Assembly (NCBI RefSeq): GCF_022869165.1
Contig: NZ_CP094929.1
Span: 1,054,001 to 1,118,000 of the forward strand
Direction: 5' to 3'
Length of the DNA stretch: 64,000 nt
Source: Sphaerochaeta associata
GTDB taxonomy: Bacteria > Spirochaetota > Spirochaetia > Sphaerochaetales > Sphaerochaetaceae
Positions 49,484 through 57,798 of the stretch are shown in pieces; position 1 is the stretch's first letter, and each line of letters begins with the position of its first letter. The translations under genes and the position numbers were made by a program. The notes under the pieces were generated by a model. The model was given only the letters and a program-made list of their open reading frames with translations, was not told the origin of the DNA and did no database searches.

Positions 49484-49542
49484 GGGGGCATTGTATCCTG
49501 TAATGCCTTGTCATGCCAGCACAACCTACCTACAATGTGTGC

Positions 49543-50589
49543 ATGTCAATACCACCGATCGACCGAAGCAGTCTTGTTCGCTATCAGCAGATCTTGCTGA
49601 GCAAAGCGATGCCTCCCCACAGTCTGGGAAGGCTCTCCGATCTTGCCTTGGACCTGGCAATGATCCGTCCACGTCCGCTCAAGCATCTCTCGCTGTTGCT
49701 CTTTGCCGCCGACCACGGCATTGTCGAGGAGGGGGTGACTCACAGCCCGGTGGAAATAACCTATCAGCAGTGTTTGAATTTCGCCAGGGGCGGGGGAGCC
49801 TGCTCGCTGTTTGCCTCCCAAGTCGATGCGGCACTAGCGGTCATCGATGTAGCAGTCAAGCATACCTTCAGCATCTCCGACAACGTGGTGGATCGGAAGG
49901 TGGCCTGGGGCAGCAGGAACTTCCTGACGGCTCCCGCCTTGGAACGGGAGGCCTGTCTCAAAGCCGTTGAGACAGGCAGGCAGTTGGTTCTTCAAGCTCA
50001 TGAAAGGGGTTGTGATGCCATCGCCTTCGGGGAGATGGGAGTAGGAAACACCACCAGTGCGTCCAGCATGGCTGCCGCCCTCACCGGCCTGCCAGTACCC
50101 TCTCTTACCGGTAAGGGTTCCGGCTTGAGTGATGCAGAGCTTCTGCACAAGATTGCGGTGATCGAGCAGGCTCTTGTCCTTCATCCGCAGCGGGCGCCTT
50201 TTGAGGTGCTGTGCAACCTTGGAGGCTATGAGTTGGCGGCAATAGTCGGTGGTATGTGGCAGGCTGCAGAGCTTGGGCTTCCGATATTGCTTGATGGTTA
50301 TGTTGTGAGCAGTGCCGCCTTGGTGGCGGTGAAACTTGAACCTGCATTGGCTGACTACCTGATCACCTGCCACCGTTCCGCAATGCAGGGTCATCAGGCA
50401 ATCCTGGATGCCATTGGATGCAAGCCTCCTTTGCTGGATTTGGCGATGCAGTTGGGCGAGGGTACCGGCGCTTTGGCCGCCTGGCCCTTGGTTCGCCTGG
50501 CAAGCCGCATTCTCTTTGAGATGACCAGCTTCGAAGAAGGCAATGTAACCAATAGTACGGCACTTTTGGCACAGCTGGGGGTGGTATGA
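49543..50589 (+). CDS. cobT: Nicotinate-nucleotide:dimethylbenzimidazole phosphoribosyltransferase
   Basis: A 348-residue CobT that activates the lower-ligand base of cobamides as an alpha-riboside phosphate. Visible motifs are PPHSLGRLSDLA near the start, FAADHGIVEEGV, FGEMGVGNTTSAS and the catalytic Glu306 in LGEGTGA. No benzimidazole synthesis gene (bluB, bza) is in the window, so the base is probably scavenged. Start uncertain: the ATG at 49543 fits the family N terminus but lacks a Shine-Dalgarno site, and an ATG at 49513 is also open. It overlaps the CbiR-like gene by four bases. Confidence 0.93.
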   Translation: MSIPPIDRSSLVRYQQILLSKAMPPHSLGRLSDLALDLAMIRPRPLKHLSLLLFAADHGIVEEGVTHSPVEITYQQCLNFARGGGACSLFASQVDAALAVIDVAVKHTFSISDNVVDRKVAWGSRNFLTAPALEREACLKAVETGRQLVLQAHERGCDAIAFGEMGVGNTTSASSMAAALTGLPVPSLTGKGSGLSDAELLHKIAVIEQALVLHPQRAPFEVLCNLGGYELAAIVGGMWQAAELGLPILLDGYVVSSAALVAVKLEPALADYLITCHRSAMQGHQAILDAIGCKPPLLDLAMQLGEGTGALAAWPLVRLASRILFEMTSFEEGNVTNSTALLAQLGVV

Positions 50590-51386
50590 AGGTACCGCAC
50601 CTGCGCATAGGAACGACCAGCTACATCCTGGCCGACGACATTCTTCCGAATGTCCGCTATTTGGCTCCAATGGTGGACGATATCGAGCTGGTATTGTTTG
50701 AGAGTGAAGAAATGAGCAATCTTCCTTCCAAGGAGGTCGTTGAAGAGCTCGCTGTCCTGGCCCGGCAGCATGACCTTACCTATACGGTGCATTTTCCATT
50801 GGACATCCAGCCAGGTAGTGCTGATCCTGCTCTTCGGTCGGCGTGTGTAGCTTCGATCCTTTCCATCATTGCATTGACCCGGAACCTGAAACCTTTCGGC
50901 TATGTGCTGCACCTCACTCCCGAGCTGTATGGAACTGTACCATCGCCGGAAGTGGAGCGTTGGCATGACTGCCTGGGGAAAACGTTGCAATCACTGTTTG
51001 AGCAGACCGACGTCAGTCCGAGAATGTTCTGCATAGAAACGCTCAGCTACCCATTTGCCTGTGTGCAGGACTTGGTTGAACGCTACGATCTTTCAGTAAC
51101 CTTGGATATCGGGCATGTCTGGTTGATGGGCTACGACAGCCGCAAGGTCCTCGATTCCTTGTTGGAGAGGACCCGCATCTGTCATCTGCACGGAGTGAAG
51201 GACAAGACCGACCATCTTGGTCTTGACCAAGGAGATGCGGAGGCAATCGAGTATTTTCTGAAGAGGCTTGTGCTGCAAGGCCAGAGGGACAGGATTGAAC
51301 GTGTTCTTACCCTGGAGGTTTTTTCTGAGGCGGAGTTTTTTGCCTCCCTCTCCCTCTTGCAGGAAAGCCATGCTATGATGAGATGA
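50586..51386 (+). CDS. cbiR: CbiR-like cobamide-remodelling TIM-barrel hydrolase
   Basis: A 266-residue AP-endonuclease-2/xylose-isomerase-like TIM barrel. Strand ends carry plausible metal ligands: Glu near 38 in VLFESEE, HFPLDI near 79, HLTPELY near 113, IETLSYPF near 148, DIGHVWLM near 173, HLHGVKD near 200 and LEVFSEAEF near 250. Its sandwiching between cobT and cobU, with a 4-bp overlap to cobT, matches CbiR, described in Akkermansia as cleaving the nucleotide loop of cobamides to give cobinamide for rebuilding with a preferred base. Sequence alone only gives the fold; the assignment leans on context. Confidence 0.78.
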   Translation: MKVPHLRIGTTSYILADDILPNVRYLAPMVDDIELVLFESEEMSNLPSKEVVEELAVLARQHDLTYTVHFPLDIQPGSADPALRSACVASILSIIALTRNLKPFGYVLHLTPELYGTVPSPEVERWHDCLGKTLQSLFEQTDVSPRMFCIETLSYPFACVQDLVERYDLSVTLDIGHVWLMGYDSRKVLDSLLERTRICHLHGVKDKTDHLGLDQGDAEAIEYFLKRLVLQGQRDRIERVLTLEVFSEAEFFASLSLLQESHAMMR

Positions 51387-51402
51387 AATCGGGGAGGGTG
51401 CC

Positions 51403-52050
51403 ATGGCTACCATTGACTTGAAAAAGAACCAGATAAAGGGATATCCGCTGCATGCCGGCAAGGGGACGATTGTATCAACGGCCGGGAGCATCAAGATTCA
51501 CACCCGCATCAAGAGTCAGGTAAGCCTGATAATCGGTGGTGGGAGAAGCGGAAAGAGTTCCTATGCCCAGGACTACGCCCTGAGTGTCTGCGAAGGGACT
51601 GAGTCGCGGGCCTACATCGCTACCGCCGAGCCGATCGATGAGGAGATGAAGCAGCGGATTGCCGCTCATCAGAAGGACCGTGGCGACCGTTTCATCACCA
51701 TCGAGGAACCCCTTGACTTGGCGAAGGCCATCAAGGACCTGCCCCCTTCGGTGGAAGTATGTGTGATTGATTGCCTTACGGTATGGTTGGGTAATCTTCT
51801 GCACCATAGTGGAGTTCCTTCCAAACGGTTTGAACAGATGGACGCCCTGTATGAGGTGCTTCACCATCCGCCGTGTGAGATTCTGCTGGTTACCAACGAG
51901 ACCGGGCTGGGTTTGATTCCCGCGGATGCAGAGAGCAGGGCGTTCCGCGATCTTGCCGGTTGGATGAATCAGGATATTGCCGAAATCGCCCAAAACGTCA
52001 TTCTGCTCGTTGCAGGCCTGCCCCTTGCATTGAAAGGCTCCGTGTTGTGA
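51403..52050 (+). CDS. cobU: Adenosylcobinamide kinase / cobinamide-phosphate guanylyltransferase
   Basis: A 215-residue CobU. The P-loop GGGRSGKSSYAQ starts near residue 46, IATAEPIDEEMKQRIAAH carries the His that is guanylylated in the family, and VCVIDCLTVWLGNLL is the Walker B region. It phosphorylates cobinamide and adds GMP for CobS. Unusually, about 38 residues precede the first strand, in a segment with no recognised domain. GGGAGG precedes the ATG at 51403, so the extension is probably translated. It overlaps cobS by four bases (GTGA). Confidence 0.93.
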   Translation: MATIDLKKNQIKGYPLHAGKGTIVSTAGSIKIHTRIKSQVSLIIGGGRSGKSSYAQDYALSVCEGTESRAYIATAEPIDEEMKQRIAAHQKDRGDRFITIEEPLDLAKAIKDLPPSVEVCVIDCLTVWLGNLLHHSGVPSKRFEQMDALYEVLHHPPCEILLVTNETGLGLIPADAESRAFRDLAGWMNQDIAEIAQNVILLVAGLPLALKGSVL

Positions 52051-52793
52051 CCTCTCTTGGCTTGAGTCTGGCGATCAGAACCCTGACCCGGTTTCCTGTG
52101 CCCGGAAGGGGCGAGGAGGCACCGGAGAAAAGCTTGTTTTGGTTCCCTTTCGTAGGCGCCCTTCTTGGATTGTGCTCATATGGTGTCGCGTCTCTTCCGT
52201 TGGCCGGCACCGTTCGCGCCGCCTTGGTGCTTGCTCTCACCGCTTATCTGACACGTGCCTTCCATCTCGACGGACTTGCAGATTTCGCCGACGGGTTGGG
52301 TGGAGGATGGACTCGTGAACGTGCGCTTGAAATCATGCGCGACAGCCATAGCGGCGCATTCGCTGTCGTAACGCTCATCGTTGTTCTTCTTGTACAATAC
52401 TCCTGTCTCACGATCATTGTGGACGCTCTTGCACCCGCTCTCATACTTGCACCTGCCATCGGAAGGTTGATGCAGGTCATCGCAGCTTCCTTTCTGCCCT
52501 ATGCCAGAAGCGGGGAGGGCACTGCATCCCAACTGGTGAGAAGGGCGACCAGGAGACACAGCCTTCTCCCGCTTGTACAGGTGCTTGGCACCTGTCTTGT
52601 CTTGTATCTCTTCTTTGACGAAGAGCTCGCCCTGAAGGCTTTGACGGCGCTTGGGTGTGCCCTGCTGATGAGCCTGGTTGTGATGCAGGTGGCAAAGCGA
52701 CGGCTGGGCGGAGTAACAGGCGATGTATTGGGAGCGATTGAGGTATTGGGCGAGAGTGCAGCCCTACTTGGCTTCCTTCTCCCTCTTGCATGA
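52047..52793 (+). CDS. cobS: Adenosylcobinamide-GDP ribazoletransferase (cobalamin synthase)
   Basis: A 248-residue polytopic membrane enzyme joining GDP-cobinamide to the alpha-riboside phosphate made by CobT. The signature DGLADFADGLGGGWTRERALEIM, followed by RDSHSGAFAV, holds the metal-binding aspartates. About six hydrophobic segments follow. The most likely start is the GTG at 52047, within the cobU stop (GTGA overlap), giving the family N terminus SLGLSLAIRTLTRFPVPG; the frame is open further upstream but overlaps cobU. The product needs a phosphatase, and a HAD protein follows 48 nt downstream. Confidence 0.92.
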   Translation: MTSLGLSLAIRTLTRFPVPGRGEEAPEKSLFWFPFVGALLGLCSYGVASLPLAGTVRAALVLALTAYLTRAFHLDGLADFADGLGGGWTRERALEIMRDSHSGAFAVVTLIVVLLVQYSCLTIIVDALAPALILAPAIGRLMQVIAASFLPYARSGEGTASQLVRRATRRHSLLPLVQVLGTCLVLYLFFDEELALKALTALGCALLMSLVVMQVAKRRLGGVTGDVLGAIEVLGESAALLGFLLPLA

Positions 52794-52841: not shown

Positions 52842-53447
52842 ATGGATATTGTTTGTCTTGATATGGAAGGGGTGCTCGTACCGGAAATCTGGATCAATGT
52901 TGCCTTGCGCACCGGCATTGAAGAGCTGAAGATCACCACGCGTGAGGAACCTGATTACGACAAGCTCATGGCCAATCGCATCAGGATTCTCAAAGAGCAC
53001 AACCTGCGACTTTCCGACATCCAGGATGTAATCGCGGGGATGGGGCCGCTTGAGGGGGCCTACGAGTTTTTGCAGTCGCTCAGGGCGATGACCCAGGTGG
53101 TGATCTTAAGTGACACCTTCACCGAGTTTGCGCAGCCTCTGATGCGTCAGCTCGATTACCCGATGATCTGGTGCAACAGCCTTGTAGTTGATGAACAGAA
53201 TATGATCGTCCGTCACCGGATGAGACTGCACGACGGGAAACGCAAGGCGGTCCAGGCAATGAGAAGCCTTAACTATCGAACGTTCGCAGCAGGGGACTCC
53301 TACAATGATTTGAGCATGATCAGGGAGGCTGACGGGGGTTGCTTGTTCCGGGCACCCCAGAACATCCTAAGCGAGTGTCCCGACCTTCGCATCACCAATA
53401 CCTATGAAGAGTTCCTCTGTGAGATCAAAGGGTTTCTGGGGACATGA
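52842..53447 (+). CDS. thrH: ThrH-like HAD phosphatase (phosphoserine phosphatase / homoserine phosphotransferase type)
   Basis: A 201-residue HAD protein very like Pseudomonas ThrH. It has the nucleophile motif CLDMEGVLVPEIW (Asp7 aligned with the HAD Asp; ThrH has the same DLEGV form), KATTR-like KITTREEPDY, motif II VILSDTFTEFAQPLMRQL, Lys in HDGKRKAV and motif IV AAGDSYNDLSMI. ThrH dephosphorylates phosphoserine or transfers phosphate to homoserine. Here it sits directly after cobS, where a CobC-type phosphatase is otherwise missing. GAGGTAGGG precedes the ATG at 52842. It overlaps the next small gene by four bases. Confidence 0.9.
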   Translation: MDIVCLDMEGVLVPEIWINVALRTGIEELKITTREEPDYDKLMANRIRILKEHNLRLSDIQDVIAGMGPLEGAYEFLQSLRAMTQVVILSDTFTEFAQPLMRQLDYPMIWCNSLVVDEQNMIVRHRMRLHDGKRKAVQAMRSLNYRTFAAGDSYNDLSMIREADGGCLFRAPQNILSECPDLRITNTYEEFLCEIKGFLGT

Positions 53448-53665: not shown

Positions 53666-54527
53666 ACTTATGGCAAACCAAGCGTGGAAAGAGAGGCGGA
53701 CAGTAGTCTTTCTCAGCGACTTCGGAACCAGCGACGGGGCGGTTTCAGCCATGCACGGGGTGGCCGACGGCATCTCCAATACGCTTCGCTTGGATGACTT
53801 GACCCACGATATTCCCCAGTTCAATATTTGGGAAGCTTCCTACCGCCTGGCCCAGGCTCTCCCGTATTGGGCTCCTGGTACGGTGTTTGTCTGCGTCGTC
53901 GATCCAGGGGTCGGTTCGGACCGCAAGAGCATCGTCGCCTTGACCGAGAGCGGCCACTTGGTGGTCACCCCTGACAATGGGACGCTCTCCCATGTGGCCG
54001 ATCGAATCGGGCTGATCGAAGTCCGTACCATCAATGTCGAGGACAACCGCCTGGCAGGAAGCCAGCAGAGCCATACGTTTTTCGGCCGTGATGTATATGC
54101 CTATACTGGGGCACGCCTCGCCTCGGCTCAGATAGAGTTTGAACAGCTTGGACCGGTTCTTCCCAAACTGGTGAGGTTGAAGATTGAACGTGTACGGCTT
54201 GAAGGTACGACCCTGATAGGCTCCATCGATATCCACGACAGCCGCTACGGCTCGCTATGGACAAATATCGGTAATGAGTTCCTTGAACAACTGGGCGTAG
54301 ACTGGGGTGACCAGCTGCAGGTTGTGATCACCAAGGATGGAAGAATCGTATATGGCTATCATCTCACGCTTTGCAAAGCCTTTACCGATGTCCAGAAAGG
54401 AGAACCGCTGATCTACGTCAACAGCCTGCTCAAGCTTGCAGTTGCGGTCAATCAGGGAAGTTTCGCAGCAACGTATCAAATAGGCACGGGTGAAGGCTGG
54501 AAAATTACATTTTCGGTGGTATCATGA
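53643..54527 (+). CDS. S-adenosyl-L-methionine hydroxide adenosyltransferase (DUF62, SAM hydrolase)
   Basis: A 294-residue protein of the SAM hydrolase/fluorinase superfamily. [18 protein letters not shown] with the SAM-contacting Asp, [45 protein letters not shown] and [14 protein letters not shown] are the conserved blocks. The enzyme splits SAM to adenosine and methionine using water activated by the Asp-Arg-His set. It lies between a cobamide block and an ECF transporter, so it may serve methionine/SAM balance in the same regulon. GGGAG lies eight bases before the ATG at 53643; an ATG at 53670 is a shorter option. Confidence 0.88.
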
Positions 54528-54558
54528 CAAACATATTTGTTATTCAGGAGGTTCTCAT

Positions 54559-55125
54559 ATGAATACATCCAAAGGCATGCAGGCGGTCAAGGCTGTAGTT
54601 GTAATCGCCATCGGTGCTGCACTGTATGGAGTAGGTGGTCTGATCAGCATCCCGGTGTTTGCCAATACGACCATCAAGCCGGCGATGGCGGTTCTGGCGC
54701 TTTTTGCCGCTGTCTACGGGCCGGTCATCGGCTTCTTGGTCGGCTTTCTCGGGCACTTGCTCACCGACCTCTTTGCAGGTTGGGGTGTGTGGCTTACCTG
54801 GGTGCTCGGAAGCGGCATAGTAGGAGCGGCAATCGGTTTGTTCGGGAGAATGACGGAACACTCCATTGACAAGGGAGAATTGAAGCGATCAGCAATCGGT
54901 CTGTTCATCCTGCTCTCCTTTTTGGGGAACTTCATTGGATATATGATCAGCGCCATCCTTGACTATCTCATCTTTGCCGAACCCATGGACAAGGTCATCA
55001 CCCAGCAGTTGATCATAGCTTTCTCCAATACCATCGTCATCGCAATCCTCGGCACGCTGCTTCTCATGCTCGTTGTAAGACGCACTACGAGTAAGATGAA
55101 TCTGCAGAAGGACAACGAGGCATAA
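54559..55125 (+). CDS. ECF transporter S component, UPF0397 family
   Basis: A 188-residue integral membrane protein with about six helices. GIGAAL-like [44 protein letters not shown] and [12 protein letters not shown] are the UPF0397 blocks, and small-residue motifs in helix 1 fit docking to EcfT. The ligand of UPF0397 proteins is not established to my knowledge. The preceding cobamide genes suggest corrinoid or benzimidazole, and the SAM hydrolase suggests a methionine precursor. CAGGAGG precedes the ATG. The energising module is the next gene. Confidence 0.87.
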
Positions 55126-55164
55126 AAGGAGTACGAGCGGGGCCTTGCGGCTTTGCGTGGATAC

Positions 55165-57798
55165 ATGCAAGAAGATCTCATCACGTTTACAGACTTCAGC
55201 TTCACCTATAAGGGCCAGACGGAAGCCACGCTCCATCATATTAATCTTCGGATCAGGAAAGGCGAAAAAATTCTCGTCGCCGGTCCTTCAGGGAGCGGGA
55301 AGAGCACCCTCGGCTACGCCGTCAACGCCCTCATCCCTCACGCCTACAGCGGGAAGGTCGAGGGTAGGGTTGTTGTATGCGGTTTGGATATCCAGCATTC
55401 TGACATCTATGCGGTCAACAAGAAGGTCGGAACGGTGATGCAGGATACCGATGCCCAATTCGTGGCCCTCAGCAGCGCCGAGGACATCGCCTTCTCTCTG
55501 GAAAATCAGTGCATGGACCAACAAGACATGCAACGTCTGGTGACAAGCATGGCCCGCATCGTCGATATGGAGGCCTTTCTCTCACACAGCCCCCAGGACC
55601 TGTCAGGCGGGCAGAAGCAACGAGTCTCGCTTGCCGGGGTGCTCGTCGATGATGTGGATGTCCTGCTCTTCGATGAGCCGTTGGCCAATCTCGATCCTGA
55701 GACGGGGAGGACCGCCATCGCCCTGATCGATGAACTGGCCAAGACGACTGATAAGACGATCATCATCATCGAGCATCGTCTGGAGGATGTCCTATCCTGC
55801 CCGGTGGACCGAATCCTGGTGATGCAGGAAGGTTGTCTGGTATCGGATACGTCACCGGCCGAATTGCTCGGCTCGTCTCTTCTGCCTTCACTGGGAATCC
55901 GCGATCCCCTCTATCTCGGGGCCTTGAGGCTTGCAGGCTGTGACCTTTCAACGCTTGGCGATGTGAGTGACCTCAAGAGCATGAGTGTTGAGCGTTGTGC
56001 TGCACAATTGTCGGCATGGCATACAAAAAGCCGGGTCGAGCATCCACGGGCGGAACGGGCGGTCCAGTTGAGGTTCAATGGCCTGAGCTACTCCTATGAT
56101 GGCATGACCCCGGTTTTACAAGGTCTGGATGCGACCATCCATGAAGGAGAGATGGTCAGTATATTGGGAAGCAACGGGGCGGGGAAATCGACACTCGCCC
56201 AGCTTCTGATGGGGGTGCTCAAGCAGGACAGCGGGGATATTTTCTTTGAAGAGCATCTCATCAACGACTACTCAGCCAGCCAGCGATCTTCGATGATCGG
56301 GTTTGTGATGCAGAACCCCAACCATATGATAAGCTGCGACCTTGTCTATGATGAGGTGGCATTCGCATTGCGTCAGAAGGGCTATCCGGAAGCGCAAATC
56401 AAGGACCGGGTGATGGATGTGCTGGGACTGTGCGCCCTGCGTCCCTACCATCACTGGCCGATTTCCGCCCTAAGCTACGGCCAGAAAAAGCGGGTGACCA
56501 TAGCATCGATCCTGGTCACCCAGCCCAAGGTCCTGATTCTTGATGAACCTACCAGCGGTCAGGACTATCAGCGTTATACCACCCTGATGGAGTTTCTCAG
56601 CCACCTCAATCGTACCATCGGGCTGACCATCCTGTTCATCACCCACGATATGCATCTGGCTTTGGAGTATACCCATCGATCATTGGTGTTGCATCAGGGG
56701 GTGCTTCTTTGCGACAAGCCCACCGGCGAGGTTTTCAGTGATGAGGCTGTACTCAAGCAGGCGAATCTGAAAGTAACCAGCCTTTATACACTCGCAAAGC
56801 GGTGCGGCATTGAAGATATTCCGTCATTCATTGAAACGTTCGTTGAAACCGAAGCCAAGACTCGTGTTGCTTCAGCCGATGCTCGCCCGATTCCCTGGGA
56901 GGAGCAAGCCCGGTTCACGGCAGAGCTGAAACAAAAACCCAAAAAGAGAGTACTGAAGGGCGGCCGAAAATTCGGCTTCACCCTGACCTATGAAGATACA
57001 GCATCGGCATTGCATGCGCTCAACGGGGTGACCAAGCTGGGAGTGTTCCTGCTATGGATCATGTTCAGCCTTACCACCTTCGACTTGCGGTTTCTAGCCT
57101 TCGGGACGGCTTTTTCGTTCATATGTTTGCTCGCTTCAAAAATTCCTCTGCTCAAGTTCAAGCCCTATTTCATCGGGATGGGCACGGTCATTGCATTGAA
57201 CGCCCTGTTCATCTATCTTTTTTCCCCCGACCAAGGGACGCTGTATTTAGGTTCCAGGACGGTTCTTCTCGGATCGGAGGGTGCAACGTATGCCCTGACA
57301 CGTGAGACGCTGTTTTATCTGGTTGTGGTTTGTCTGAAATACTTCTCGATTTTCCCCATGGCCCTATTGTTTGTCAGTATCACCAACCCTTCTCAATTCG
57401 CTTCTTCCTTGAATCGTCTGGGACTCTCCTATAAGATCAGTTACGCAGTAGCCCTTGCGCTTCGCTATCTGCCGGAGGTCTCATCCAGCTACCTGCACAT
57501 TCTTCATGCCCAGATGGCACGCGGGGTGGATATCTCAAGGAATGTCTCCTTGGGCAAGAGACTCTCATCGGTGAGCAGGCTTCTCGCTCCATTGGTGCTT
57601 TCCAGTCTTGACCGAATCGAGGTGATTACCAATGCGATGATCCTCAGGGGGTTCGGCCGAATGGATACGAGGACCTGGTACCTCAGTCAGAAACTGCGCG
57701 TGCAGGATTATCTTGTTCTTGGATTTGCGTTTGCCTTGGTTGCAGCCAGCCTTTGGGTACGGTTTTGGATGAATGTCATGTTTTGGTATCCCTTTTAG
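55165..57798 (+). CDS. Fused ECF energising module (EcfA-EcfA'-EcfT in one polypeptide)
   Basis: An 877-residue three-domain protein. Residues 1 to about 260 are an ABC ATPase (Walker A GPSGSGKST near 41, signature LSGGQKQRV, LLFDEPLANLDP). Residues about 290-550 are a second ATPase (Walker A GSNGAGKST, signature in the variant form LSYGQKKRV, LILDEPTSGQD). After a basic linker, residues about 615-877 form an EcfT/CbiQ membrane domain with five hydrophobic segments and the coupling motifs ARGVD and RGFGR. Normally these are three separate subunits. The S component lies 39 nt upstream. Start at the ATG 55165 is tentative, as a TTG at 55153 is also open and no strong ribosome site is seen. Confidence 0.92.
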   Translation: MQEDLITFTDFSFTYKGQTEATLHHINLRIRKGEKILVAGPSGSGKSTLGYAVNALIPHAYSGKVEGRVVVCGLDIQHSDIYAVNKKVGTVMQDTDAQFVALSSAEDIAFSLENQCMDQQDMQRLVTSMARIVDMEAFLSHSPQDLSGGQKQRVSLAGVLVDDVDVLLFDEPLANLDPETGRTAIALIDELAKTTDKTIIIIEHRLEDVLSCPVDRILVMQEGCLVSDTSPAELLGSSLLPSLGIRDPLYLGALRLAGCDLSTLGDVSDLKSMSVERCAAQLSAWHTKSRVEHPRAERAVQLRFNGLSYSYDGMTPVLQGLDATIHEGEMVSILGSNGAGKSTLAQLLMGVLKQDSGDIFFEEHLINDYSASQRSSMIGFVMQNPNHMISCDLVYDEVAFALRQKGYPEAQIKDRVMDVLGLCALRPYHHWPISALSYGQKKRVTIASILVTQPKVLILDEPTSGQDYQRYTTLMEFLSHLNRTIGLTILFITHDMHLALEYTHRSLVLHQGVLLCDKPTGEVFSDEAVLKQANLKVTSLYTLAKRCGIEDIPSFIETFVETEAKTRVASADARPIPWEEQARFTAELKQKPKKRVLKGGRKFGFTLTYEDTASALHALNGVTKLGVFLLWIMFSLTTFDLRFLAFGTAFSFICLLASKIPLLKFKPYFIGMGTVIALNALFIYLFSPDQGTLYLGSRTVLLGSEGATYALTRETLFYLVVVCLKYFSIFPMALLFVSITNPSQFASSLNRLGLSYKISYAVALALRYLPEVSSSYLHILHAQMARGVDISRNVSLGKRLSSVSRLLAPLVLSSLDRIEVITNAMILRGFGRMDTRTWYLSQKLRVQDYLVLGFAFALVAASLWVRFWMNVMFWYPF

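Follow-up and report, generated by a model that had tools for sequence, protein, structure and literature searches.

A probable cobamide remodelling and salvage operon with a CbiR hydrolase in corrinoid-auxotrophic Sphaerochaeta

The chromosome of Sphaerochaeta associata carries a compact cobT-cbiR-cobU-cobS gene cluster, and the question it raises is whether this organism rebuilds cobamides made by others or uses these genes for some narrower purpose. The cluster lies in a stretch of 64,000 nucleotides (contig NZ_CP094929.1, positions 1,054,001 to 1,118,000), here called the window. A preliminary description had proposed that the genes remodel cobamides and that the organism relies on corrinoids from its community, and sequence comparisons argue for both. 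We consider it highly likely that the cluster is an operon with which a corrinoid-auxotrophic Sphaerochaeta remodels and salvages cobamides.

The genes occur on the forward strand in the order cobT-cbiR-cobU-cobS. CobT (49543..50589) is the nicotinate-nucleotide:DMB phosphoribosyltransferase, which activates the lower base. It matches PF02277 with 372 bits, TIGR03160 with 355 bits (cut-off 319) and the CobT structures 1j33 and 1jh8; an upstream ATG at 49513 is also a possible start. The cobamide remodelling phosphodiesterase CbiR (50586..51386) is encoded next, its gene overlapping cobT by four nucleotides (ATGA). After a gap of 16 nucleotides comes CobU (51403..52050), the adenosylcobinamide kinase/AdoCbi-P guanylyltransferase, which matches PF02283, known CobU structures and NF004469 (172.5 bits, cut-off 161). 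CobS (52047..52793), the AdoCbi-GDP ribazoletransferase, begins with GTG, overlaps cobU by four nucleotides (GTGA) and matches PF02654 and TIGR00317 (122 bits, cut-off 110). The positions, the spacing and the four identities given in the preliminary description are thereby confirmed, all four proteins passing curated family models with concordant Pfam matches.

Upstream of cobT is a divergent intergenic region of 59 nucleotides (49484..49542, assigned to neither strand), in which a consensus scan tentatively places a promoter-like TTGTCA-17-TACAAT at 49508-49536. An Rfam search of the locus found no riboswitch. Control of the operon by a cobalamin riboswitch was rejected on this result and on the position of the genome's riboswitches, which sit elsewhere. 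Terminator-like matches at the locus are no more frequent than in shuffled sequence. A candidate internal extended -10 promoter for cobU-cobS, TGnTATGAT, lies inside the 3' end of cbiR just upstream of cobU (51371..51379, forward strand); it is invariant in 21/21 aligned Sphaerochaeta loci, an invariance partly due to conserved Met codons, and within the window such a motif is no rarity.

Comparison of CobU homologues reveals an N-terminal extension of about 38 amino acids starting with M[AP]TID (51403..51516, forward strand). The extension is found in Sphaerochaeta and genus g14 only, and is missing from genomes G098 and G102 and from other genera. Its dN is well below its dS, so it is a translated and selected part of the protein. 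The predicted model of CobU with the extension has a mean pLDDT of 46, too poor for use.

The gene after cobS, at a distance of 48 nucleotides, encodes a ThrH-type HAD phosphatase (52842..53447, forward strand; NF010109 and TIGR02137 over cut-off). A thrH-type gene follows cobS in most of the loci read, a conserved position. Further downstream (53670-57798) is a cluster encoding a SAM hydroxide adenosyltransferase, an ECF S component and a fused EcfA-A'-T protein; the first two of these are also present downstream in several relatives.

The reading of the operon depends on the identity of its second gene. CbiR matches the equivalog model NF041277 with 280.4 bits against a cut-off of 105, aligning to profile positions 2-248 of 249 and so over the full length, and matches PF01261 with 44 bits (cut-off 31). 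Eight residues (H69, H109, E151, D174, H177, H200, H202 and E244) are invariant in 33 homologues, as also seen in an alignment of 11 sequences. The signature residues of CbiR, whose lack would have told against the preliminary description, are present. The invariant histidines, aspartate and glutamates are of the types that members of the superfamily are expected to use as metal ligands, and a profile alignment places most of them in line with those of a solved relative, MJ1311 (3wqo). The profile retrieved MJ1311, and a phmmer search of the PDB with CbiR gave no match. A scan of genome contigs with CbiR yielded only two loci. The predicted model (pLDDT 79) has the AP-endonuclease-2 TIM-barrel fold.

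The superfamily also includes sugar isomerases and AP endonucleases, and the gene might encode one of these, merely neighbouring the cob genes. The nearest folds to the CbiR model are indeed ketose 3-epimerases and endonuclease IV, with Z scores of 19-22 over nearly the whole length. The equivalog score speaks against this reading, and other superfamily members of the same genome reach about 40 bits or less against NF041277. CbiR is moreover encoded beside cobamide genes, stays at the cob locus across genera and is fused to CobT in relatives. We therefore regard a chance neighbour as very improbable and identify the TIM barrel of the window as CbiR, for which homology predicts cobamide hydrolysis. 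A protein of genome G027 (L063:3816-4712) scores 135 bits, over the NF041277 cut-off, and is probably not CbiR; its gene lies among those of a sugar ABC transporter, so passing the cut-off alone is no proof of CbiR, and the curated cut-off may admit paralogues.

CbiR of Akkermansia muciniphila produces cobinamide-phosphate and alpha-ribazole (PMC7733943). The enzyme works only under anaerobic, reducing conditions, and EDTA inhibits it (PMC7733943). The preliminary description had named the product as cobinamide, which is wrong by comparison with the Akkermansia enzyme. We infer the enzyme activities and substrate ranges in the following route. Cobamides from outside would enter via riboswitch-linked BtuB-like/TonB/ExbB and BtuFCD-like systems, and CbiR would cut the phosphoribosyl bond to release adenosylcobinamide-phosphate and alpha-ribazole. 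Because the product is cobinamide-phosphate, CobU would be needed for its guanylyltransferase half, converting AdoCbi-P to AdoCbi-GDP. CobT would make a new alpha-riboside phosphate from whatever base is available, CobS would join it to AdoCbi-GDP, and some phosphatase would finish the product for use by MetH and NrdJ. The ThrH-type protein encoded after CobS is, as a conjecture, a possible supplier of this last phosphatase step and so a link to cobamides. CbiB would be dispensable because the CbiR cut keeps the aminopropanol arm.

The gene content of the genome, which is closed at 3.55 Mb, fits such a route. The preliminary description had reported no corrin ring genes in the operon, and this holds for the operon and extends to the genome. 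No ring-building tetrapyrrole methylases were found in the genome, where the one TP_methylase is the rRNA enzyme RsmI, and CbiB is absent from this genome and from 26/26 genus genomes, as its dispensability would lead one to expect. With RsmI as the sole TP_methylase and no CbiB, corrin ring synthesis is impossible; full de novo synthesis, which would have refuted the preliminary description, is absent. The presence of CobU, CobT and CobS and the absence of CbiB fit the gene set of a cobinamide salvager. A CobA/BtuR-type adenosyltransferase is present, and no PduO-type adenosyltransferase was found in the genome. Cobalamin users in the genome include MetH and NrdJ.

A genome search for BluB gave no match over the cut-off, and the sub-threshold BluB-like matches are probably general nitroreductases. 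Without BluB the base would be scavenged, or would be adenine. Adenine, or a benzimidazole that is scavenged, is thus the likeliest final base. Adenine is the base of the pseudocobalamin made by Akkermansia. The predicted CbiR may act on the operon's own product, a point that tells against remodelling and is a problem for Akkermansia CbiR too.

Three cobalamin riboswitches are present in the genome, none of them at the operon. They precede genes for a BtuB-like receptor with ExbB and TonB, a B12-independent NrdDG and a BtuFCD-like transporter. The BtuB, BtuF, BtuC and BtuD matches are below the equivalog cut-offs, so these names rest on family likeness and on the riboswitches. The best CobC candidate in the genome scores 80 bits against a cut-off of 163. 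The distance of the riboswitches from the operon and the lack of a CobC over the cut-off are both counted against remodelling.

Two further observations concern B12-related genes elsewhere in the genome. The riboswitch 5' of NrdDG (L042:3492-5825; G000:C1:7491-9824), with the B12-dependent NrdJ encoded separately, likely forms a switch between the two reductases. A protein of 353 amino acids with a B12-binding domain, distantly CarH-like (L044:3209-4270; G000:C1:3141208-3142269), is followed by an uncharacterised protein and then a MerR-like regulator, and is a possible corrinoid sensor.

The operon is widespread in the genus. Of the 26 genus genomes, 23 encode both CobT and a CbiR over the cut-off, and the other three have neither cbiR nor cobT. 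Gene order and flanks are conserved, and such a recurrence of all four genes across the genus, identically ordered and between identical neighbours, is not chance. In the family, CobT is present in 33/34 genomes with CbiR (a set that includes the doubtful G027, where the CbiR-like gene lies away from the cob locus) versus 8/105 without (Fisher p 3e-23, uncorrected for relatedness). The gene cbiR is kept at the cob locus across genera, and two genus g21 genomes have cbiR-cobU-cobS with cobT elsewhere.

The remaining rival explanation is that the operon serves mainly for cobinamide salvage by CobU, CobT and CobS, with CbiR confined to housekeeping, as a hydrolase for the recycling of cobamides that are damaged or in excess, and no exchange of the base. 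Salvage can evidently stand alone, since syntenic cobT-cobU-cobS loci without cbiR are found in one clade of relatives, G124, G027 and G020 (L098, L099 and L100); those of G027 and G020 were read further and are followed by a Gfo/Idh oxidoreductase gene and then thrH. On a tree of CobU and CobS the presence or absence of cbiR at the locus fits a single change. Since cbiR occurs to either side of the outgroup root, the absence reads as a loss, a direction that is tentative because the outgroup branch is very long. Against salvage without base exchange, no genus genome has only one of cbiR and cobT, the two genes overlap in several loci, and three genomes have them fused. We judge this explanation improbable and favour remodelling.

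The fusions occur outside the window, in three genomes (G023, G079 and G025) of two other genera of the family, where CobT and CbiR form one polypeptide of about 608 amino acids (L060:841-2667, L061:322-2148 and L092/L093). Two of the fusions lie on single contigs, and each of these has a complete CobT domain and a complete CbiR domain. In G025 the fusion is split over two contigs, which join by an exact overlap of 127 nucleotides to give one open frame. We found no mention of a CobT-CbiR fusion in the literature examined, the supplements of PMC7733943 excluded, and consider it mildly novel. The fusion might, as a tentative idea that we think rather unlikely to be right, couple cleavage with the supply of a new base and so stop the endless cutting of the pathway's own product, the overlapping cobT and cbiR of the window being the unfused form.

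The operon is, on good support, an ordinary instance of the CbiR remodelling type already known, in a new setting. The locus of the Akkermansia muciniphila CbiR (Amuc_1679) contains cobDQ, cbiB, cobT, cobS and cobU (PMC7733943). The two are alike in that CbiR is encoded beside nucleotide-loop genes in a host that lacks ring synthesis, and the proteins share a superfamily and a conserved His/Asp/Glu pattern. In contrast to the Akkermansia locus, the set is here reduced to four genes in a genome devoid of CbiB, CobU carries its N-terminal extension, and some relatives encode CobT and CbiR as a single protein.

Remodelling of the CbiZ type, as in Rhodobacter sphaeroides, likewise removes the lower ligand for replacement. 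The amide bond that CbiZ cleaves adjoins the aminopropanol linker, and rebuilding the arm needs CbiB, which S. associata does not have. The salvage of cobinamide by cobT-cobU-cobS in Escherichia coli shares the three assembly enzymes and the lack of a de novo ring, but CbiR is missing from E. coli, as none of the control genomes passes the NF041277 cut-off.

The organism had been called a gut-type spirochaete in the preliminary description, which is unsupported. The genus Sphaerochaeta is described as free-living and anaerobic, from sediments, sludge and other anoxic habitats (PMC6284720). With this operon Sphaerochaeta, of anoxic sludge, sediments and methanogenic cultures, joins the predicted reshapers, rather than makers, of community cobamides. 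The family offers a natural series, with CbiR as a separate protein, CbiR fused to CobT, or cbiR cleanly missing from that same position, which allows direct tests of coupling, of futile cycling and of the ecological value of remodelling.
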